A stretch of 64,000 nt of DNA, taken from Poseidonibacter lekithochrous (GTDB lineage: Bacteria > Campylobacterota > Campylobacteria > Campylobacterales > Arcobacteraceae). The translations under genes were made by a program, and so were the position numbers. The notes under the pieces are model-generated. The model saw nothing but the letters and a program-made list of their open reading frames with translations, was not told the DNA's origin and did not search any database. The stretch spans positions 1,488,001-1,552,000 of the forward strand of contig NZ_CP054052.1 in assembly GCF_013283835.1 (NCBI RefSeq), in the 5' to 3' direction. Of this stretch, positions 46,343-59,486 are shown piece by piece (positions within the stretch are counted from its first letter, which is position 1; every line of letters starts with the position of its first letter).

Positions 46343-46936
46343 ATTTCTACTGCAAAAGAAACTAAAAAAAATTCTATTATAGAAAATTCATTAAAACTTT
46401 TTTCACAAAAAGGTTTTTATAATACTACAATTCCAGACATAGCTAAATCTATGAAAATGAGTGTAGGGAATATGTATAACTATTTTTCTTCAAAAGAAGA
46501 ACTTGCAAAATATGCAATCAAATATTCAACAAATATATTAGCATCTCAATTAAGAGAAATTAACCATATGGAAATTTCTTCAAAAGAAAAAATATTCTTA
46601 TTTGCAAAGATGTATTTTGAAAATGTAAAAAACTCACCTGAAGTAATTGAATACTTTTTAAGAGTATATTTATCAAATAGAGAAGTTTTCAAACAAGGTT
46701 GTGAAGGTTTCTTATGTGTAGGAGAATTCGTAACAGAAGTTATGCTTTTACTTGATGAAGGTGCACAAAATAAAGAGTTCAGAGATCAAGAATTTTTTCC
46801 AGCATTTTCAATGATTATGGGAAGTCTTGGTGGCTTTGCTTTCCTTTCGGGAGAAGCTGTATTAGATAAAGATATTATGGAATACTCAGATGCTATTGCT
46901 GATAATATCTATAGAGCACTAAAGTATGACGAATAA
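46343..46936 (+). CDS. TetR-family regulator with apparent ATT start
   Basis: 197 residues if translation starts at ATT 46343, which is 6 nt after AAGGA (46332-46336). The first in-frame ATG (46451) would remove most of the DNA-binding domain. Upstream codons read TKKNSIIENSLKLFSQKGFY then TTIPDIAKSMKMSVGNMYNYFSSKEEL, a complete TetR helix-turn-helix, and no ATG, GTG, TTG or CTG lies between the in-frame stop at 46331 and 46451. The C-terminal ~140 residues are the ligand/dimer domain. Its end overlaps a hydrogenase sensor-like subunit by 11 bp, so it is translationally linked to it. It probably binds the ATGAATANTCATTCAT sites before both hydrogenase operons (inference). Confidence 0.8.
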   Translation: MSTAKETKKNSIIENSLKLFSQKGFYNTTIPDIAKSMKMSVGNMYNYFSSKEELAKYAIKYSTNILASQLREINHMEISSKEKIFLFAKMYFENVKNSPEVIEYFLRVYLSNREVFKQGCEGFLCVGEFVTEVMLLLDEGAQNKEFRDQEFFPAFSMIMGSLGGFAFLSGEAVLDKDIMEYSDAIADNIYRALKYDE

Positions 46937-47819
46937 TAAAAAACCTACAGTTGTATGGTTTCAGGCAATTACATGTAATGGAAATACTCATTCATTATTA
47001 AGTGCCAACTCTTCAAGATTGGAGCTATTTCTAAATAGCTTTGATCTTATCTATCACCCTTCATTAACTATTGATAAATCCCTAAATGAAATTCTAGAAT
47101 CAAAAGATGAAATAGATTTTTTATTAGTTGAGGGTGCTATTAGTAAAAATAGTGATTTTTTCACCATCTCTGATGAAACAACAAATGTCTTATTAAATAA
47201 ACTTACTTCAAAAGCAAAATATTTAGTAGCTGTTGGTTCATGTGCTTCTTATGGTGGAGTTCATGCTAAGTTTGAACAAAATGATAATGTTGTTGGATTA
47301 GAAGAATCACTAGATAAAAAAAGTACAAAAAATTTAAAACATGAAATTATAAATTTAACGGGTTGTCCAGTACATCCAGAATGGATAATTCAAACTCTTT
47401 TTACTCTTAATAATTTTGGAAAAATGGCTATTGATGAAGAGGGTAGACCAAAAGAATTATATAGTACTCTTGCACATCATGGTTGTACTAGAAATGAATA
47501 CTTTGAATGGAAAATCGAAGGAGCATGGGGAGAAAAAGAGGGCTGTTTATTTTACGACCAAGGCTGTCGTGGTCCTATGACTCATAGTTCTTGTAATAAG
47601 ATATTGTGGAATGATGTAAACTCTAAAACAAGAGCTGGAATGCCTTGTATTGGTTGTACTGAAACAGACTTTCCAAGAGATAATATGTTAGAGACAAAAA
47701 AGAATATTGGTATTCCTTTTGAAGTGCCAACTGGTATATCAAAACGAGCATATTTATCAATTACAGGTGTTGCTAAAACATTTACAATTGATAGACTAAA
47801 TAAGAAATTAATGGATTAA
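46926..47819 (+). CDS. Sensor-type NiFe hydrogenase small subunit
   Basis: 297 residues with no Tat signal or membrane anchor, therefore cytoplasmic. Proximal-cluster motif CNGNTHS has Asn in place of the usual second Cys; the other ligands lie in AVGSCASYGG and TGCPVHPEW. Further cluster ligands: HHGCTRNEYFEW, YDQGCRGPMTHSSCNKILW and PCIGCTETDFP. The CxGN pattern is known from group 2 (cyanobacterial HupS-type) hydrogenases. Between a TetR regulator and a large subunit lacking the maturation tail, it is best read as an H2-sensing HupU/HoxB-like protein; a group 2d soluble enzyme is the alternative. Confidence 0.85.
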   Translation: MTNNKKPTVVWFQAITCNGNTHSLLSANSSRLELFLNSFDLIYHPSLTIDKSLNEILESKDEIDFLLVEGAISKNSDFFTISDETTNVLLNKLTSKAKYLVAVGSCASYGGVHAKFEQNDNVVGLEESLDKKSTKNLKHEIINLTGCPVHPEWIIQTLFTLNNFGKMAIDEEGRPKELYSTLAHHGCTRNEYFEWKIEGAWGEKEGCLFYDQGCRGPMTHSSCNKILWNDVNSKTRAGMPCIGCTETDFPRDNMLETKKNIGIPFEVPTGISKRAYLSITGVAKTFTIDRLNKKLMD

Positions 47820-47821
47820 AA

Positions 47822-49174
47822 TTGAAAACAGTTGAAATAGTAGAAAGAATCGAAGGGGAAGCAAAACTAAATTGCTCTTGGGATAATAATGTAATTAGTG
47901 ATGCTAGAATTGATTTTCTTAATTTCAGAGGTTTTGAATTTATACTAGAAGGAAAAGCTCCTTTAGATGCTTTGGTTTATACTCCAAGAATCTGTGGTAT
48001 TTGTGGGCAAGCTCATCTTAAAGCTACTGTTGATGCATTAGAGAATATATATGAAAACATCAATGAAAAACTAGAAGTAACTCCTAAAGCAAAACTGCTT
48101 CGAGAAATAGGTCTAAATATTGAAATAATTGATTCTCATATCAAATGGTTTTATATGTTTATTCTTCCTGATATTATAAAACTAAAGCAGAATGATTTAG
48201 GTATTTATCAACCGCTAAAGGGAAGTAGATGGCTTGGAGCTTCAAAGACTGCAAGTGAAACTATTAAGTCTTTAGCGATTTTAGGAGGACAATGGCCTCA
48301 TACTTCATATATGATTCCAGGTGGTGTTGTAACTGATCCTACTTTATTAGACTTATCTTCTATGATGAATTATATTGATACTGCTGTAATGTTCTTTGAA
48401 AAAAGTGTAGCAGGTGTTTCTTTTGATAAGTATCTAGACTTTGATAGTAGGGATGATTTGAATATCCTAAGTGGTGATATGAAGTATTTTACTAACTTAG
48501 CATTTGAAAACTCTTTCCAAAAAATAGGAACTAGCCATAATAGATTTATTGCTTTAGGGGAATCTTCTTTATTTAAAACTGGAAAAATAAGACAAAGAGC
48601 AATTAACAAACTTGATTTATCAAAGGTAAGAGAGTTTACTGAACAAACATTTACTATTGAAGATAGGGCAAATCCAAAAAAACATACTTGGTCAAAAGCT
48701 GTTTGTTATGATAATAATTTCTATGAAACAGGTCCACTAGCTAGAGCTATGATTGGAAATAAACCTTTTATAAAAGAGTTACATAAGTCATTTAAAGACT
48801 CAGTTTTCACAAGAGTTATGGCTAGAATGGACGAATTAGCTCATTTATTAGATAATACAAAATCACTAATAAAACAAGTAGATATCTCAGAAGAATCATA
48901 TATTAAACCCAAAATAAATCTAAAAGATATTGATTCAGCTAAAGCTACATCAGTTGTAGAGGCCTGTAGAGGCTCACTTTATCATGATATAGAGATTGAA
49001 AAAGGTAAAATCAAAAAATACGATGTAATCACTCCAACTGTTTGGAATCTAGGACCTTCACATAAAGAACAAAAAGGAATTGCTCAAAAAGCTATTATTG
49101 GATCAAAATCACTTGATATTGCAAAAATAGTACTGAGAAGTTTTGATGTATGTTCTGTTTGTACCACTCACTAA
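47822..49174 (+). CDS. Sensor-type NiFe hydrogenase large subunit
   Basis: 450 residues from a TTG start (47822); GGA lies 7 nt upstream, a weak site. NiFe-ligand motifs are RICGICGQAH near the N-terminus and DVCSVCTTH at the very end. The protein stops at that His, so the C-terminal peptide that maturation proteases remove from catalytic large subunits is absent. That is characteristic of H2-sensing hydrogenases (HupV, HoxC). RIEGEAK replaces the catalytic-type TRIEGH sequence. Three bases separate it from the small subunit gene. It probably forms a cytoplasmic heterodimer with it. Confidence 0.87.
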   Translation: MKTVEIVERIEGEAKLNCSWDNNVISDARIDFLNFRGFEFILEGKAPLDALVYTPRICGICGQAHLKATVDALENIYENINEKLEVTPKAKLLREIGLNIEIIDSHIKWFYMFILPDIIKLKQNDLGIYQPLKGSRWLGASKTASETIKSLAILGGQWPHTSYMIPGGVVTDPTLLDLSSMMNYIDTAVMFFEKSVAGVSFDKYLDFDSRDDLNILSGDMKYFTNLAFENSFQKIGTSHNRFIALGESSLFKTGKIRQRAINKLDLSKVREFTEQTFTIEDRANPKKHTWSKAVCYDNNFYETGPLARAMIGNKPFIKELHKSFKDSVFTRVMARMDELAHLLDNTKSLIKQVDISEESYIKPKINLKDIDSAKATSVVEACRGSLYHDIEIEKGKIKKYDVITPTVWNLGPSHKEQKGIAQKAIIGSKSLDIAKIVLRSFDVCSVCTTH

Positions 49175-49442: not shown

Positions 49443-50675
49443 ATGATTGATTCTGCGGAAATGGTAAAAAAAGTTTTTACCCAAAAATCTGGAAGAGTTG
49501 AAACAAATAAGGGTGATGAGTATTACAACGAATTATTTGATTCAGCAAAAGAGCGACTGTCGTCTTTAAGAGCACAAGAGCCACTTAAAGATATTGATTT
49601 AATGGACGTTATTGATAGTGAAGGTGTAAATAGAAGAGATTTCATGAAGTGGGTTAGTGCTACAACTGCCACACTTATGTTACCTCCTATGTTTGCTCCT
49701 TTAGTTGCAGAAGCAACTGAGCTTATGAATAGAGTACCTGTAATTTGGATTGAGTTACAAGATTGTGCTGGTAACTCAGAAGCATTATTAAGATCAGCTG
49801 CTCCAACAGTTGATGATTTATTATTTGATGTTTTATCTTTAGAGTTCCATGAAGCTCTACAAGCAGCAGCGGGACACGATGCTGATAGACAACTTGAAGA
49901 AGCTGTTCATCATTTCAAAGGAGATTACTTATTATTTGTTGAGGGTGCAATTCCTATGGCAAATGAGGGTAGATACGGAACTATTGGTGCATCTGGTGAA
50001 ACATTCCATGATCACTTACAAAGAATGGCTAAAGATTCTGCTGCTGTTGTTGCAGTTGGAACATGTGCTACATTTGGTGGAGTTCCAGCAGCCGCTCCAA
50101 ACCCAACTGGTGCAGTTGGAGTTATGGATTTAGTAAAAGGGAAACCAATTATTAATATTCCTGCCTGTCCTGCAAACCCAGCTAATATGGTTGGAGTTGT
50201 ATTACATTATGTATTAACTGGTCAAGTTCCTGAATTAGATTCACTTCTTAGACCTAAGTTTGCATTTGGATATAGAATCCATGATAACTGTGAAAGAAGA
50301 GCTCACTTTGATGCTGGTGAATTTGTAGAAGAGTGGGGAGATATTGGAGCTGAAAATAACTGGTGTTTATACAAAGTTGGTTGTAAAGGACCAATGACGT
50401 TTAATAACTGTTCAATTGTACGATATAACGAAGGAACAAACTGGCCTGTTGGTGTTGGTCGTGGTTGTATTGGTTGTTCTGAACCAGACTTCTGGGATAA
50501 ATATGCTTATGAGAGACCAATGGCAAATGCAAATATAAAAGCACCTACTGGTGGAGTTGAAAAAACTGTTGATGAATTCGGTCTTGGATTGTTAACTGCA
50601 ACAACTGTAGGTATTGGTGTTCATGCAATTGGTAGTGCAATTGCTGGTAAAAAATCAGATGAGGGAGAAGAGTAA
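49443..50675 (+). CDS. hydA: NiFe hydrogenase small subunit HydA1 (variant proximal cluster)
   Basis: 410 residues from ATG 49443 (site AAGGGAGAG); an in-frame ATG at 49413 lies within the operator and lacks a site. A long N-region precedes the Tat motif NRRDFMKW and hydrophobic stretch, so the protein is exported folded. The proximal motif is QDCAGNSEALL: Asn replaces the second Cys of the canonical CTGC seen in HydA2. Other ligands are normal: GTCATFGG, PACPANP, HDNCERRAHFD, WCLYKVGCKGPMTFNNC and GCIGCSEPDFW. A C-terminal hydrophobic helix (LLTATTVGIGVHAIGSAIA) anchors it in the membrane next to the cytochrome b subunit. It passes electrons from the NiFe site to HydC1. Confidence 0.93.
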   Translation: MIDSAEMVKKVFTQKSGRVETNKGDEYYNELFDSAKERLSSLRAQEPLKDIDLMDVIDSEGVNRRDFMKWVSATTATLMLPPMFAPLVAEATELMNRVPVIWIELQDCAGNSEALLRSAAPTVDDLLFDVLSLEFHEALQAAAGHDADRQLEEAVHHFKGDYLLFVEGAIPMANEGRYGTIGASGETFHDHLQRMAKDSAAVVAVGTCATFGGVPAAAPNPTGAVGVMDLVKGKPIINIPACPANPANMVGVVLHYVLTGQVPELDSLLRPKFAFGYRIHDNCERRAHFDAGEFVEEWGDIGAENNWCLYKVGCKGPMTFNNCSIVRYNEGTNWPVGVGRGCIGCSEPDFWDKYAYERPMANANIKAPTGGVEKTVDEFGLGLLTATTVGIGVHAIGSAIAGKKSDEGEE

Positions 50676-50677
50676 TA

Positions 50678-52420
50678 ATGGCAAAAAAACACTTAGTAAT
50701 TGATCCAATTACAAGAATTGAAGGACATCTTAGAATTGAGGCAATCATAGATGAAAACAATGTTGTAACTGATGCTTATTCATCTTCTACTATGTTTAGA
50801 GGAATTGAAGAAATTTTAAAAGGAAGAGACCCTAGAGATTGTGGTTTACTTGCTATGAGAATTTGTGGAGTTTGTACAGGTACTCACTACCAAAGATCAA
50901 TCGAAGCAGTTGAACATGCGTTTAATGTAACTATTCCAAAGAATGCTAGACTTGTTAGAAACTTAGTACAAGGGGCATTATATTTACATGACCATATTGT
51001 ACATTTCTACCATTTACATGCGCTTGACTGGGTTGATATTACAGAAGCTTTAAAAGCAGATCCCAAGAAAACAGTATCAGAAGCACAAAAATGGGCTGGA
51101 TTATCTGGAAATAGACCTTGGAATGCAAGTGAAGATGTATATGCCACAGTTCAAGAGAGAGTTACAAGATATGTAAAACAAGGAAGACTTGGAATTTTTG
51201 GTAATGCTTACTGGGGTTCAAAAGGTTTTAAACTTACTCCTGAGCAAAACTTAATTGGTTTATCTCACTATTTAGATGCCTTAGAAATCCAAAGAGAACT
51301 TGGAAAAATGATGGCAATCTTTGGTGGTAAAAATCCACATCCACAATCATTTGTTGTTGGTGGTGTAACTTGTGTTCAAGATATTAAAAACCCTGCAAGA
51401 ATTGCTGAGTTTAAACAAATTCTTAAAAAAGGTAGAGAGTTTACTAAAATGGCTTATTTACCTGATGTTTACATGGCTGGTACTATGTATGCTGATGAAG
51501 CATTAGAAGGAATTGGTGGAGGTTTAGGTAACTTCATGACTTTTGGTGACTTTAACCAAGATGATTTACCATTCTATGAATCTTCAAAATTATTCCCTTC
51601 TGGAATTGTTATGAACAAAGATTTATCTAAAGTTTACGAAGTTGACCAAACAAAAATTACAGAAGATGTAACTCATGCTTGGTACGAAGGTGAAACTAAT
51701 CTACATCCATACGAAGGTGAAACAAAACCTAACTATACTGGATTTGGTAAAAATGAAAATAATATCGCTTACTTAGATACTGAAAACAAATACTCTTGGA
51801 TTAAATCACCATTATATGATGATGAAAGAATGGAAGTTGGACCACTTGCAAGAATGATTGTTGGAGTTGCAAAAGGAGATGAAAGAATCTCTAAATATGT
51901 AACTACATTCTTAAAACAAGGTAACTTACCAACAAAAGTATTATTCTCAACAGTAGGTAGAACTGCAGCACGTGCAATTGAAACTGAACTTATGGCTGAT
52001 GTTATGATGGAATGGGTAGATGAATTAGCAGCAAATGTTGCAAATGGTGATTTATCAACTTGGACTGAATTTGACTTTGATACAGTATCTGCTGATGCTG
52101 AAGGTTTTGGTATGGCTGAAGCACCAAGAGGTGGATTAGGTCACTGGATTAAAATCAAAGACGGAAAAGTAGCAAACTATCAAGCAGTTGTTCCATCAAC
52201 ATGGAATGCGGCACCTAGAGATTATAAAGGAAGATTAGGAGCTTATGAAGCTTCATTAGTTGGAACAAAAGTTGCAAATCCTGATCAACCACTTGAAATT
52301 TTAAGAACAGTACATAGTTTTGATCCTTGTATTGCTTGTGCGGTACATATTATTGATACAAATGGTAAAGAATTAGGTGTTTACAAAGTAGACCCTATTG
52401 GAGGAACTAGCCGTGCCTAA
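50678..52420 (+). CDS. hydB: NiFe hydrogenase large subunit HydB1
   Basis: 580 residues. It holds the NiFe site that oxidises H2. Signatures: IDPITRIEGHLRIEA, RICGVCTGTHY (first Cys pair) and DPCIACAVH (second pair), followed by a C-terminal tail IIDTNGKELGVYKVDPIGG that the HydD protease should remove after His. Exported together with HydA1. Its ATG follows the hydA1 stop by 3 nt. Confidence 0.96.
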   Translation: MAKKHLVIDPITRIEGHLRIEAIIDENNVVTDAYSSSTMFRGIEEILKGRDPRDCGLLAMRICGVCTGTHYQRSIEAVEHAFNVTIPKNARLVRNLVQGALYLHDHIVHFYHLHALDWVDITEALKADPKKTVSEAQKWAGLSGNRPWNASEDVYATVQERVTRYVKQGRLGIFGNAYWGSKGFKLTPEQNLIGLSHYLDALEIQRELGKMMAIFGGKNPHPQSFVVGGVTCVQDIKNPARIAEFKQILKKGREFTKMAYLPDVYMAGTMYADEALEGIGGGLGNFMTFGDFNQDDLPFYESSKLFPSGIVMNKDLSKVYEVDQTKITEDVTHAWYEGETNLHPYEGETKPNYTGFGKNENNIAYLDTENKYSWIKSPLYDDERMEVGPLARMIVGVAKGDERISKYVTTFLKQGNLPTKVLFSTVGRTAARAIETELMADVMMEWVDELAANVANGDLSTWTEFDFDTVSADAEGFGMAEAPRGGLGHWIKIKDGKVANYQAVVPSTWNAAPRDYKGRLGAYEASLVGTKVANPDQPLEILRTVHSFDPCIACAVHIIDTNGKELGVYKVDPIGGTSRA

Positions 52421-53141
52421 TATGAAACGGGTTGAGAGAATGACTCCAATCATGCGAACGATTCACTGGATGAATGCGCTTTGTATGATTGTTGCAGTTG
52501 CAACCGGTTTATATATTGGTTATCCATATTACCAAACTCTTATTGCTGATCCTGCTGTGGATAAGTATGTAATGGCTTGGAATAGATGGGGACATTTTAT
52601 TGCTGCGATTATTTTTGATGTTACAGCAATTTTAATTGGTTATTTATATCTTTTCTCTAGATTTGAAAAACCATATAAAAAAGTTTTACCAACTAAGAAA
52701 AACTTCATTGAGTTTTGTGAAGTTTTCTTTAACTTAGTTACGTTTAACAGAAGAAAGAAATTTGATTCGACGCATAGTGATAGTTATAATGTAATGTTTT
52801 TTACATTGTTTCATATTCTATTAATATTTATGCTTTTAACTGGATTACAATTATATGTTCATGGATTAGCTTCTGGACACAGTTCAATTGGTGCTTGGTG
52901 GCCATGGATGTTGCATTTTGCAACTGACTGGACATTATATGTATTTGGTGGAAATATGGGTGTTAGAATTGCCCATCATACTGCTATGTACTTAATCTTA
53001 ATGTGGGTTATGTCTCATATTTATTACCAAATCTGGAGAACAATTTTCTGGAGAGAAGGTGATATTGGTATTGTATTTAGTGGACATAAGTTTGTTAAAG
53101 ACGAAAACAAAGATAAAGAAAAAGACGAAGAAAATAAATAA
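52413..53141 (+). CDS. hydC: Hydrogenase cytochrome b subunit HydC1
   Basis: 242 residues from GTG 52413, 8 nt after GGAGG and overlapping the hydB1 stop by 8 bp; ATG 52422 is the alternative but is too far from the site. Four membrane helices with His residues placed for two b haems: RTIHWMNALCM, WGHFIAAIIFDV, FTLFHILLIFMLLTGLQLYVHG and AHHTAMYLILMWVMSHIYYQ. It takes electrons from HydA1 to the quinone pool. The C-terminus is highly charged (KDENKDKEKDEE). Confidence 0.92.
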   Translation: MPNMKRVERMTPIMRTIHWMNALCMIVAVATGLYIGYPYYQTLIADPAVDKYVMAWNRWGHFIAAIIFDVTAILIGYLYLFSRFEKPYKKVLPTKKNFIEFCEVFFNLVTFNRRKKFDSTHSDSYNVMFFTLFHILLIFMLLTGLQLYVHGLASGHSSIGAWWPWMLHFATDWTLYVFGGNMGVRIAHHTAMYLILMWVMSHIYYQIWRTIFWREGDIGIVFSGHKFVKDENKDKEKDEENK

Positions 53142-53183
53142 TATCAACAGAGGCTTTATGCCTCTTTGATTTTGGAGTGGATT

Positions 53184-53774
53184 ATGAAAAAGAAAAATAT
53201 TGTTATTGGTGTAGGAAACATGTTATTTAAAGACGAAGGTATAGGAATCTATGCATCTGAGTATTTAAGCCAAAACTATGAATTCGAAGGTGATTTAGAA
53301 GTTATAGATGGTGGAACATTAGGATTTAAATTAATGTCATATTTTCAAGAATATGAAAACGTAGTTATTTTAGACACAGTATCAATAGAAGATAATCCAG
53401 GTGAGATTTTTCGATTGCCATCAGATGTATTATTAGGTTTAGGAAACTATAGAAAAACTGCTCATGAAGTAGAAATAGTTGAAATGCTTGAAATCTGTTC
53501 TGTGTTAGATTCTCATGCAAATGTAACAATCTTAGGAATTATTCCTGAAGATATTGTAAGTGTGGGTATTGGTCTAACTGATACTATGGAGAATAGATTT
53601 GAAGAATTTATACTACATGCAATAAAAGAGATAGATAGTCTTGGTGTTAAATCTAAAAAGGTAAATAATATCTTGATCCCTGACATTGTAAAAAGTATGA
53701 TTGGTAGTTATAATGGCGAACATTTAACAAGAATCCCAAATGAAGAAGACATTAGACATGCAGTTAATTTATAA
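53184..53774 (+). CDS. hydD: Hydrogenase maturation protease HydD1
   Basis: 196 residues from ATG 53184 (GGAGTG site); the earlier in-frame ATG is not supported. HybD/HyaD fold with nickel-sensing residues Glu18 in GVGNMLFKDEGIG, Asp64 in VVILDTVS and His94 in TAHEVEI; DGGTLGFKL is the family signature. It should cut the C-terminal tail of HydB1 after nickel insertion. Its last 17 nt overlap hydE1. Confidence 0.92.
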   Translation: MKKKNIVIGVGNMLFKDEGIGIYASEYLSQNYEFEGDLEVIDGGTLGFKLMSYFQEYENVVILDTVSIEDNPGEIFRLPSDVLLGLGNYRKTAHEVEIVEMLEICSVLDSHANVTILGIIPEDIVSVGIGLTDTMENRFEEFILHAIKEIDSLGVKSKKVNNILIPDIVKSMIGSYNGEHLTRIPNEEDIRHAVNL

Positions 53775-55290
53775 AATAGAATTTAATACAACAAATTCGT
53801 ATTTCAAATATATTATTGATACATTAATCACTGAAACAAAAGTAAATGCTCAATGTAAACAATATAAAGGTTTTATACTTTTAATTTTTGAAGAAGAATC
53901 AAAGAAAATAGAAGATTTCTTTGGCTTTTTAGAAAAGAAATTACCAGTATCAATTTTCTTAAGTAAATCATATGTAGTTGAATCAATCTCAGATGATTTC
54001 GAAGAGTTAGAAGATAAAAAAGTAAAACAAAATATTTCTTTATTGACAAATGATGCAATCAAAAATATTATCGATACACATGATATTGATTTTTTAAATG
54101 ATATTGTAAAAATCACAAAAGGTGAAATATCAAGATTTGAAACTCATAATGGTTTAAAAGATCTATTTTTACCAAGTAGAGAAATAAGAGAAGATTTTGA
54201 GAGTAGAGGATATGAAGTAAAACTTCTAATCACTAATATTAATAAAATCTCTGAATTATTCGATGTAAGTCCTAAAGATTTACAACTATTATGTTCAATA
54301 GAGAGACCTTTGGTAAAACTAAAGTTCAAGCTATTACAAAATAAGAATAAAGAGTATGCCTCTACAAACTTTGTATATGCGAAAATTCCAGATGATAAAG
54401 AAACAGTTCTTTTCTCACAAGCTTTAATGGAAAAAGGAATTGACTTTTTACTTTATGTAAATGACGAAGTTTATCAAGATGGATTAAAAACTACATATTT
54501 CCAAGACCAAAATCTAATAGTAAGTGGTGATAAAGGACTATTCCCAAAATATGACTATATTGCAAATGCTAAGTTTAATTCTTCAAAAGATTTCTTTGAT
54601 GATAATGGGGGAGTTTATAAAGCAACTATTGGTCAGATTGGAAAAAGATTAGTACCTAGTGCTGGAGTATATTTTTCTCAGAACTCAAATAAAAGTTCTC
54701 TTCTTATGAATCTTCCTTCAAAGGGATTAAAAGAAGTAATTGCTATTCCAAATATTCATAATAGTTTGGATAATTGTATTGAAGAAATATCTGAAATTGA
54801 TGAACATTGTGAGAGATTAGTAAACAACTATAAAAAGAAATTCCCTCAATATTTTGAAAGTGAAGTACCTCAAAATGTACATGGTTTTGAATCTATTATA
54901 AATATGTGTGCAAAAGTAATTGGTATGGATAATGCTAAAGAGTTTGAAGATATGGCTTTGAGTGTAACAGCAAAAGGTGGTATTCAAATAGATATGAAAC
55001 TTGTGAATCTTGATGGTGTAAATTATCTAGATTATAGAAGAACTGTACAATCTATAATGTCTTATAAAATGGCAGATGTAGATAACGGAACTTTAACATA
55101 TTCATTCTATGAAAGTCTTAGTGAATTTATCTGTAATTATGTAGATGAAGTAGCAAAAGAGATAAAAGCAAAAGATGTAGTAATGACTGGGAATATGTTC
55201 TCAAACTCAATTCTATTATCAAAAACTCATAAGAATTTGAGTAAAAATTATAACTTTATTCTTCCAAAAGAGTATCCTTTAGATTACTAA
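53758..55290 (+). CDS. hydE: HydE1, HypF-related hydrogenase accessory protein
   Basis: 510 residues from ATG 53758, chosen because the resulting 17-bp overlap with hydD1 is identical in the paralogous operon (hydD2/hydE2); ATG 53740 is in frame but less likely. HydE of Wolinella and Helicobacter is needed for hydrogenase activity. The C-terminal part (LTYSFYESLSEFI... VVMTGNMFSNSILL) resembles the end of HypF carbamoyltransferases (LAEA...LSGGVFQN). Unlike HydE2 it has lost the HypF-like zinc-finger Cys pairs. Exact reaction unknown. Confidence 0.82.
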   Translation: MQLIYKIEFNTTNSYFKYIIDTLITETKVNAQCKQYKGFILLIFEEESKKIEDFFGFLEKKLPVSIFLSKSYVVESISDDFEELEDKKVKQNISLLTNDAIKNIIDTHDIDFLNDIVKITKGEISRFETHNGLKDLFLPSREIREDFESRGYEVKLLITNINKISELFDVSPKDLQLLCSIERPLVKLKFKLLQNKNKEYASTNFVYAKIPDDKETVLFSQALMEKGIDFLLYVNDEVYQDGLKTTYFQDQNLIVSGDKGLFPKYDYIANAKFNSSKDFFDDNGGVYKATIGQIGKRLVPSAGVYFSQNSNKSSLLMNLPSKGLKEVIAIPNIHNSLDNCIEEISEIDEHCERLVNNYKKKFPQYFESEVPQNVHGFESIINMCAKVIGMDNAKEFEDMALSVTAKGGIQIDMKLVNLDGVNYLDYRRTVQSIMSYKMADVDNGTLTYSFYESLSEFICNYVDEVAKEIKAKDVVMTGNMFSNSILLSKTHKNLSKNYNFILPKEYPLDY

Positions 55291-58325: not shown

Positions 58326-59486
58326 TTGGATACCAAAAAACTATATGAAAAACTTTCTAATAGATTGTTAGACTTAGAAAAACTACCAAAACTAAAAGAA
58401 GAAAAATCAATCTCTAAACACCTAGATGAAAAAGGTGTATCAAGAAGAGATTTTATGAAATGGGCAACTGCTATTACTGCGATGTTAGCTCTTCCTGCTT
58501 CGTTTACTCCACTTGTTGCAAAAGCTGCTAAATTATCAGATAGATTACCAATCATTTGGCTACACATGGCAGAATGTACTGGATGTTCAGAATCACTTCT
58601 TCGATCTGATGCTCCTACTATTGACTCACTAATCTTTGATTATATTTCACTTGAATACCACGAAACTTTAATGGCAGCTGCTGGTTGGCAAGCTGAACAC
58701 AATCTTGAATCAGCAATTGAAAAATACAAAGGTCAATATATTTTAATGGTTGAAGGTGGAATTCCATCAGGAGATAGTGCTTCATTTTTAACTATTGGTG
58801 GACATGGTAAAACTGGTGAGCAAAGTGCAATTGAAGCATCTAATAACGCTGCTGCAATTTTTGCTATTGGAACTTGTTCTTCTTATGGTGGTGTTCAAGC
58901 TGCTATTCCAAATCCTACGGGAGCTGTTGGTTTATCAAAAGTTACAGATAAAACAGTGATTAATGTACCTGGTTGTCCTCCTAGTGAGAAAAATATTGTA
59001 GGAACTTTACTTCATTATATTTTATATGGAACACTTCCTGCTCTTGATGCTTACAATAGACCAAAATGGGCTTATGGACAAAGAATCCATGATTTATGTG
59101 AAAGAAGAGGTCACTTTGATGCAGGTGAATTTGTAGAAGAGTTCGGTGATGAGGGTGCAAAAAAAGGTTATTGTCTTTACAAAGTAGGATGTAAAGGTCC
59201 TTATACTTTTAATAACTGTTCAAAAAATAAGTTCAATTCTCATATGTCATGGCCTATCCAAGCAGGTCACGGTTGTATTGGATGTTCTGAGCCTGATTTC
59301 TGGGATACTATGGGACCATTTGAAGAGCCTGTTGCAAACAGATTATATGACACAGTATTCAAAGGATTAGGAGCTGATGCAACTGCTGATAAAGTTGGAG
59401 TTGGATTATTAACAGTGACTGGTATTGGTATAGCAGCACACGCGGCAATCTCGAAGTTTAAAAATCCAAAAGAGGGTGAGGAATAA
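58326..59486 (+). CDS. hydA: NiFe hydrogenase small subunit HydA2
   Basis: 386 residues from TTG 58326, 6 nt after AAAGGA, with no closer ATG before the Tat motif. SRRDFMKW and the following hydrophobic stretch mark a Tat signal. The proximal motif is canonical, AECTGCSESLL; other cluster motifs (GTCSSYGG, PGCPPSE, HDLCERRGHFD, GYCLYKVGCKGPYTFNNC, GCIGCSEPDFW) are intact. No extra Cys of the O2-tolerant 1d type is seen. A C-terminal hydrophobic helix anchors it. This is the standard Campylobacterota group 1b-like uptake subunit. Confidence 0.94.
   Translation: MDTKKLYEKLSNRLLDLEKLPKLKEEKSISKHLDEKGVSRRDFMKWATAITAMLALPASFTPLVAKAAKLSDRLPIIWLHMAECTGCSESLLRSDAPTIDSLIFDYISLEYHETLMAAAGWQAEHNLESAIEKYKGQYILMVEGGIPSGDSASFLTIGGHGKTGEQSAIEASNNAAAIFAIGTCSSYGGVQAAIPNPTGAVGLSKVTDKTVINVPGCPPSEKNIVGTLLHYILYGTLPALDAYNRPKWAYGQRIHDLCERRGHFDAGEFVEEFGDEGAKKGYCLYKVGCKGPYTFNNCSKNKFNSHMSWPIQAGHGCIGCSEPDFWDTMGPFEEPVANRLYDTVFKGLGADATADKVGVGLLTVTGIGIAAHAAISKFKNPKEGEE

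Follow-up and report, generated by a model that had tools for sequence, protein, structure and literature searches.

The hydA1 gene of Poseidonibacter lekithochrous raises the question of how an exported [NiFe] hydrogenase small subunit works with asparagine where a cysteine would hold the proximal iron-sulfur cluster, and whether this residue is an accident of one gene or a property of a class of enzymes. The window referred to below is the whole 64,000-nucleotide stretch of DNA that was analysed, and coordinates are counted from its first letter. The features that bear on the question are:

46451-46936, forward strand: possible regulator of the TetR type, first gene of the cluster, proposed from position only, with no Pfam match here
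46926-47819, forward strand: sensor-type (group 2) small subunit with a CNGN motif and without a Tat signal; closest solved relative Huc (7utd/7uur)
47822-49174, forward strand: sensor-type large subunit (PF00374)
49443-50675, forward strand: hydA1, Tat-exported, C-terminally anchored [NiFe] hydrogenase small subunit of 410 aa with a CAGN proximal motif
49764-49775, forward strand: C108-A-G-N111 of HydA1 (TGT GCT GGT AAC), the first proximal Cys and the Asn at the place of the fourth ligand; the Asn111 codon, AAC, is at 49773-49775
50064-50066, forward strand: C208 of HydA1, a proximal ligand that is kept
50166-50174, forward strand: C242-P-A244 of HydA1, a kept proximal Cys followed by Ala at the place of the Pro of CxGC enzymes
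50678-52420, forward strand: hydB1, large, catalytic subunit in which the nickel-binding motifs RICGVC and DPCIAC are intact (PF00374, 726 bits)
52398-53141, forward strand: hydC1, cytochrome b subunit, the quinone link (PF01292)
53166-53774, forward strand: hydD1, hydrogenase maturation endopeptidase (PF01750, TIGR00072)
53740-55290, forward strand: hydE-like gene for an accessory protein resembling the HypF C-terminus (PF22521, partial TIGR00143)
58326-59486, forward strand: hydA2, the other exported-type small subunit, whose motif is the standard CTGC, used as internal control

A group 1 small subunit with asparagine at the fourth proximal place

The hydA1 gene starts at ATG 49443, with the ribosome-binding-like sequence AAGGGAGAG upstream, and its product has the Tat motif RRDFMKW, a hydrophobic C-terminal helix, the Pfam domains Oxidored_q6 and NiFe_hyd_SSU_C, and a match to NCBIfam TIGR00391 at 441 bits (cut-off 179.5). 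When HydA1 is aligned with solved [NiFe] enzymes, Asn111 occupies the column of the second Cys in the proximal CxxC motif and the 11 other cluster ligands are all kept, including C208 and C242 of the proximal set, H280/C283/C308/C314 of the distal set, and C323/C342/C345 of the medial set together with the medial Pro. An earlier reading of the sequence alone had claimed that Asn replaces a proximal [4Fe-4S] cysteine while all remaining ligands are intact; alignment and DNA bear out both parts, and the codon, read again, is AAC and not a Cys codon. An AlphaFold2 model was set aside, as it is cofactor-free and has a mean pLDDT of 61.5, with values below 50 across most of the C-terminal FeS domain. 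That the gene is damaged or misread, as the missing ligand alone could suggest, is close to impossible: the frame is open, both the catalytic motifs and the genes for accessory proteins are intact, and the agreement of 141 distinct homologues rules out a sequencing error or pseudogene as the source of Asn111.

The Tat signal, the C-terminal anchor and the TIGR00391 score above cut-off, together with the RxCGxC and DPCxxC motifs of HydB1 and the cytochrome b partner, place the enzyme among the exported uptake hydrogenases of group 1, and enzymes of Arcobacter and Sulfurimonas have been put in group 1b with both of the clades described below lumped (PMC5037454, PMC10066037). Yet HydA1 is not of the prototypical four-Cys proximal type (D. 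gigas, Wolinella), having Asn111 at the second CxxC position, nor of the O2-tolerant group 1d [4Fe-3S] type, in which HoxK reads ECTCC where HydA1 has Gly at both supernumerary-Cys places. It also lies outside group 1h, whose representative AH has Asp and is distant in the tree, and outside group 2a and the HupS and Huc enzymes: it scores 302 bits to D. vulgaris versus 108 to Huc and is placed in group 1 by the tree. The Asn at the fourth proximal position that it has in common with group 2a is a likeness in one column, not membership.

Fixation of the asparagine in a clade of its own

We surveyed 397 Campylobacterota genomes, taking as HydA1-type any gene of at least 67% identity and reading every one. 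Asn is present in all 94 orthologues, which are spread over 91 genomes, and likewise in two further divergent HydA1-type sequences (57-65% identity); a 92nd genome, G004, has a divergent copy only. CAGN as an oddity of a single Arcobacter is ruled out by this survey, and about a quarter of the sampled Campylobacterota species carry a CAGN-type hydrogenase, often as their only uptake enzyme. To look for members outside the phylum, we scanned GTDB genomes and drew 121 from Aquificota: all 20 readable HydA1-clade loci of Aquificota have C[A/D]GN (64-69% identity), and the motif is CAGN in three MAGs of Actinomycetota. Among 368 further Gammaproteobacteria there was no gene of the HydA1 type, the one match being the already known CTGC enzyme of the sample's centre genome. 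Of the 141 distinct DCAGN proteins, 91 encode the Asn as AAC and 50 as AAT, so that it is the amino acid that is kept, not the codon.

The idea that CxGN forms a separate clade is confirmed, with support of 100/99 in one tree and 100/100 in another for a monophyletic HydA1 clade, which a long branch separates from the CTGC enzymes found in Campylobacterota, Shewanella and Ferrimonas. HydA2-type genes of Campylobacterota, in turn, have CTGC in 17 of 17 sampled. The sequence-only reading had allowed that its case would fall if Asn proved ordinary across HydA orthologues, and this is true of the HydA1 orthologues and untrue of HydA2. Its proposal of two uptake enzymes in one genome holds, in the form of a deeply separate HydA1 and HydA2. 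The latter is the HydABC type of Wolinella, Helicobacter and Campylobacter (group 1b), with which HydA1 has in common the Tat signal, the C-terminal anchor, the cytochrome b, the [NiFe] catalytic motifs, the medial and distal ligands and about 50% identity. The two types differ in that HydA2 has CTGC, HxxE before the motif and Pro two residues after C242 (hereafter C242+2), whereas HydA1 has CAGN, ExxD and Ala, and they form separate clades.

Several sequences stood out in the survey. Arcobacter sp. LC1 has a tandem second HydA between hydA1 and hydB1 (L047:1788-2897, and L110) that lies on a long branch and reads CAGE; this Glu is the sole non-Asn residue in the clade, and the Tat motif of the duplicate is degraded and without arginines. 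One genome (G163) encodes two identical HydA1 proteins at distant places on one chromosome (L040 and L041). A small subunit from Aquificota (L279, G505) reads ECSGP, with Pro where the fourth proximal ligand would be. In G004, the gene that follows hydB of the divergent CAGN hydrogenase (L076:2733-6644) is like a multi-CxxCH cytochrome, instead of cytochrome b.

Exported group 1 enzymes outside the clade can likewise have a residue other than cysteine at this position. A plasmid-borne group 1 enzyme of Sulfobacillus has Asn (CDGN), and those of Geobacterales/Desulfuromonadales, probably group 1f, have Asp or Asn. The latter resemble HydA1 in the pattern [E/N]xxDCxG[D/N], the Tat signal and the group 1 fold, but they mostly have Asp, with one Asn, and form a separate clade with a Chloroflexota relative that keeps Cys. 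The view that one would not expect Asn in an enzyme that is Tat-exported and cytochrome-b-linked finds no support: the residue is fixed in a clade that extends over three phyla, and the exported enzymes of Sulfobacillus and Geobacterales have Asn or Asp too. Inside HydA1, Asn is the ordinary residue; it surprises only when HydA1 is set beside textbook members of group 1.

A third group 1-like enzyme of Campylobacterota, with DCSGN and without a Tat signal, was seen at L270:3115-5538 (reverse strand) and at L219 and L232 (G129, G333); its small subunit, of about 810 aa, is fused behind a pyridine-nucleotide oxidoreductase and a BFD [2Fe-2S] domain. In one genome, which we take to be that of S. 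autotrophica, this fused enzyme is the only [NiFe] hydrogenase found. It matches the XCL-2-like hydrogenase, whose Fe-S sites have been termed unconserved (PMC4744846).

A second sequence feature accompanies the Asn. At C242+2, 55 of 56 Cys-type sequences have Pro and none of the 148 Asn/Asp/Glu-type sequences does; within HydA1 the residue is almost always Ala. Cys goes with Pro in HoxK, HybO, D. vulgaris and Allochromatium, and non-Cys with non-Pro in AH, the Huc-type enzymes and the sensor subunit; exceptions are C. necator HoxB and the haloarchaeal Natrarchaeobaculum, which combine Cys with Thr/Val, and one Aquificota sequence with Pro at both places. A tree-based linkage test yielded only five well-supported independent pairs, with the expected direction in one to three and the opposite in none, and its sign test is not significant. 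The association suggests that a non-Cys residue at the fourth proximal place is linked to loss of the Pro at C242+2, and we regard it as a lead.

Four of the five Asp-type sequences (L148, L153, L159 and L171, from Desulfuromonadia) have a new Cys at C242+2 (GCPCN), a possible ligand swap. If such swaps can occur, another residue of HydA1 or HydB1 might give a fourth thiolate and thereby an all-Cys cluster. The HydA1 alignment has no conserved Cys that is missing from HydA2, and HydB1 was viewed for its nickel motifs only; we consider this explanation very improbable.

A working enzyme and its likely proximal cluster

The clearest view of function comes from Sulfurimonas paralvinellae GO25, in which the whole HydA1 cluster is on a 49.8-kb plasmid (L173, NZ_CP041407.1, 16165-22808). 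It comprises TetR, the sensor pair, HydA1, HydB1, cytochrome b and Hyp genes, and the gene at the place matching window positions 46451-46936 is annotated TetR/AcrR. We found no group 1 hydrogenase in this genome besides the CAGN enzyme of the plasmid, and the only other [NiFe] large subunit by PF00374 is that of the sensor, on the same plasmid. S. paralvinellae lives on H2 as energy source with nitrate or O2 as acceptor (PMC7952632, table 1), and its H2-uptake activity has been measured (PMC4584964). The same compilation lists the species as without a group 1 enzyme (PMC7952632, table 3), apparently because the plasmid copy was missed. Since CAGN is the sole group 1 enzyme in this H2-oxidising species, a catalytically dead subunit is very unlikely, and the enzyme is evidently functional. 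Two genomes that we take to be those of Nitratiruptor sp. SB155-2 and Persephonella marina EX-H1 have one group 1 enzyme each, and in both it is CAGN. Another plasmid, of 395 kb, carries a HydA1-type enzyme in Sulfurovum mangrovi.

Our preferred reading, to which we give a probability of roughly 0.6, is that HydA1B1C1 is a working group 1 uptake enzyme from an old clade with a retuned, three-Cys proximal cluster. It would carry out periplasm-facing, quinone-linked H2 uptake, with the proximal cluster held by three cysteines either as [3Fe-4S], as in Huc, or as [4Fe-4S] capped weakly by Asn (or water), as reported for HupS. A group-2-like precedent for Asn had been proposed from the sequence, and the alignment agrees, with CNGN in the sensor and CSGN in Huc-type enzymes in the same column. 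The precedents nevertheless differ from HydA1 in other ways. Huc of M. smegmatis (group 2a, PDB 7utd/7uur) resembles HydA1 in the Asn and in menaquinone-linked H2 oxidation, and Huc's plasmid-borne relatives resemble it in the Ala at C242+2; unlike HydA1, Huc is without a Tat signal, is only weakly akin (the 108 bits given above) and has three [3Fe-4S] clusters and the HucM stalk (PMC10017518). Cyanobacterial HupS (Nostoc punctiforme) also has Asn at the fourth proximal place, but is cytoplasmic-side and has distal Gln and medial Lys changes that are absent from HydA1. Its Asn-bearing proximal cluster is reported as [4Fe-4S] in PMC6616624, which cites Raleiras 2016, and in PMC4070099. C. necator AH (group 1h, PDB 5aa5) is like HydA1 in having non-Cys in this column and non-Pro at C242+2, and unlike it in the Asp, which has been described as completing the ligand set of a [4Fe-4S] cluster in fourth place (PMC5364354), in being without a Tat signal and in its distance in the tree. 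Because these precedents disagree on the cluster, our reading specifies a three-Cys cluster, and within it we would slightly favour [3Fe-4S] over an Asn-capped [4Fe-4S].

With either cluster type, potential and lability beside the NiFe site would differ from those of the all-Cys cluster of HydA2. Most likely the proximal potential would be raised and the enzyme biased, in micro-oxic surroundings, towards oxidising H2 and passing the electrons to the quinone pool; HydA2 would be the standard anaerobic-type enzyme. It is plausible that the two form a differently tuned uptake pair, as had been suggested.

Asn could instead be a neutral, historical variant that caps a normal [4Fe-4S] cluster, so that HydA1 behaves like HydA2 and its clade differs by ancestry and regulation. 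The [4Fe-4S] cluster reported for Asn-bearing HupS (PMC6616624) fits this view, as does a mutagenesis survey of an Alteromonas hydrogenase in which each substitution seen in databases, Asn included, left the enzyme active (PMC4070099); the HydA1 clade also differs elsewhere, in both subunits. Against it, Asn is fixed in three phyla with no return to Cys in 141 distinct proteins and is accompanied by the linked loss of Pro at C242+2, which argues that the local surroundings have adapted to Asn. We think a neutral origin unlikely, albeit far from negligible.

Oxygen, and what the CAGN clade may mean for Campylobacterota

Campylobacterota have been described as without O2-tolerant [NiFe] enzymes (PMC5357620, PMC10066037), and in an aerobic Sulfurimonas the enzyme of group 1b was classed as oxygen-sensitive by homology (PMC10066037). 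We found no spectroscopy or O2-inactivation results for any CAGN-clade enzyme in the literature. In the genomes, a haem-copper oxidase is present in 36 of 36 HydA1-only genomes tested and absent from 10 of 27 with HydA2-type enzymes, the type of some of these 27 being assigned by score rather than read. Nine of the ten oxidase-less genomes belong to one family, and one of the ten, G004, also has the divergent CAGN enzyme. These data agree with a micro-oxic role for HydA1 and are no proof of it.

A stronger proposal is that Asn is an O2-tolerance device, by which activity in air would be preserved through a three-Cys cluster of high potential, making the oxygen-sensitive 1b label wrong. Huc and C. 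necator AH, with Asn and Asp in this column, are O2-insensitive types (PMC10017518; PMC5364354), every HydA1-only genome tested has the oxidase, and Hydrogenothermaceae (Persephonella) carry the CAGN clade. The O2 insensitivity of Huc, however, has been put down mainly to narrow gas channels and not to the cluster (PMC10017518), Asn-bearing cyanobacterial HupSL is described as O2-sensitive (PMC6616624), and the link with the oxidase is weak, G004 speaking partly against it. A role in O2 tolerance is a tentative and somewhat doubtful idea, and the retuned three-Cys cluster in a working uptake enzyme is the reading that we retain.

The presence of Asn here in group 1 enzymes has been noted before. 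Groups 1b, 1f and 1g have been noted to have three proximal cysteines only, and one proximal cysteine to be replaced by Asn in mesophilic verrucomicrobial HupS and by Asn or Asp in group 1f (PMC5364354, 2016). What our analysis adds is that, in Campylobacterota, Asn marks one of two deeply separate enzymes, that it is fixed there and in two more phyla, that the CAGN enzyme is frequently the sole uptake hydrogenase, and, as a lead, that the Asn goes together with a change at C242+2. Since Campylobacterota carry the CAGN type beside the CTGC type, the label of a prototypical, oxygen-sensitive group 1b enzyme lumps two cluster designs. Genomes with CAGN only, with CTGC only and with both enzymes are natural controls for the role of a three-Cys proximal cluster.

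At vents, in redoxclines and in plumes that contain oxygen, these bacteria are among the main organisms that oxidise H2. It is conceivable, if rather unlikely, that the CAGN clade is a distinct respiratory class, an independent three-Cys, high-potential solution for H2 oxidation with O2 present. If this were true, many vent Campylobacterota, and Persephonella too, would take up H2 mainly by the CAGN enzyme, although these organisms are now presumed to have oxygen-sensitive group 1b enzymes only.
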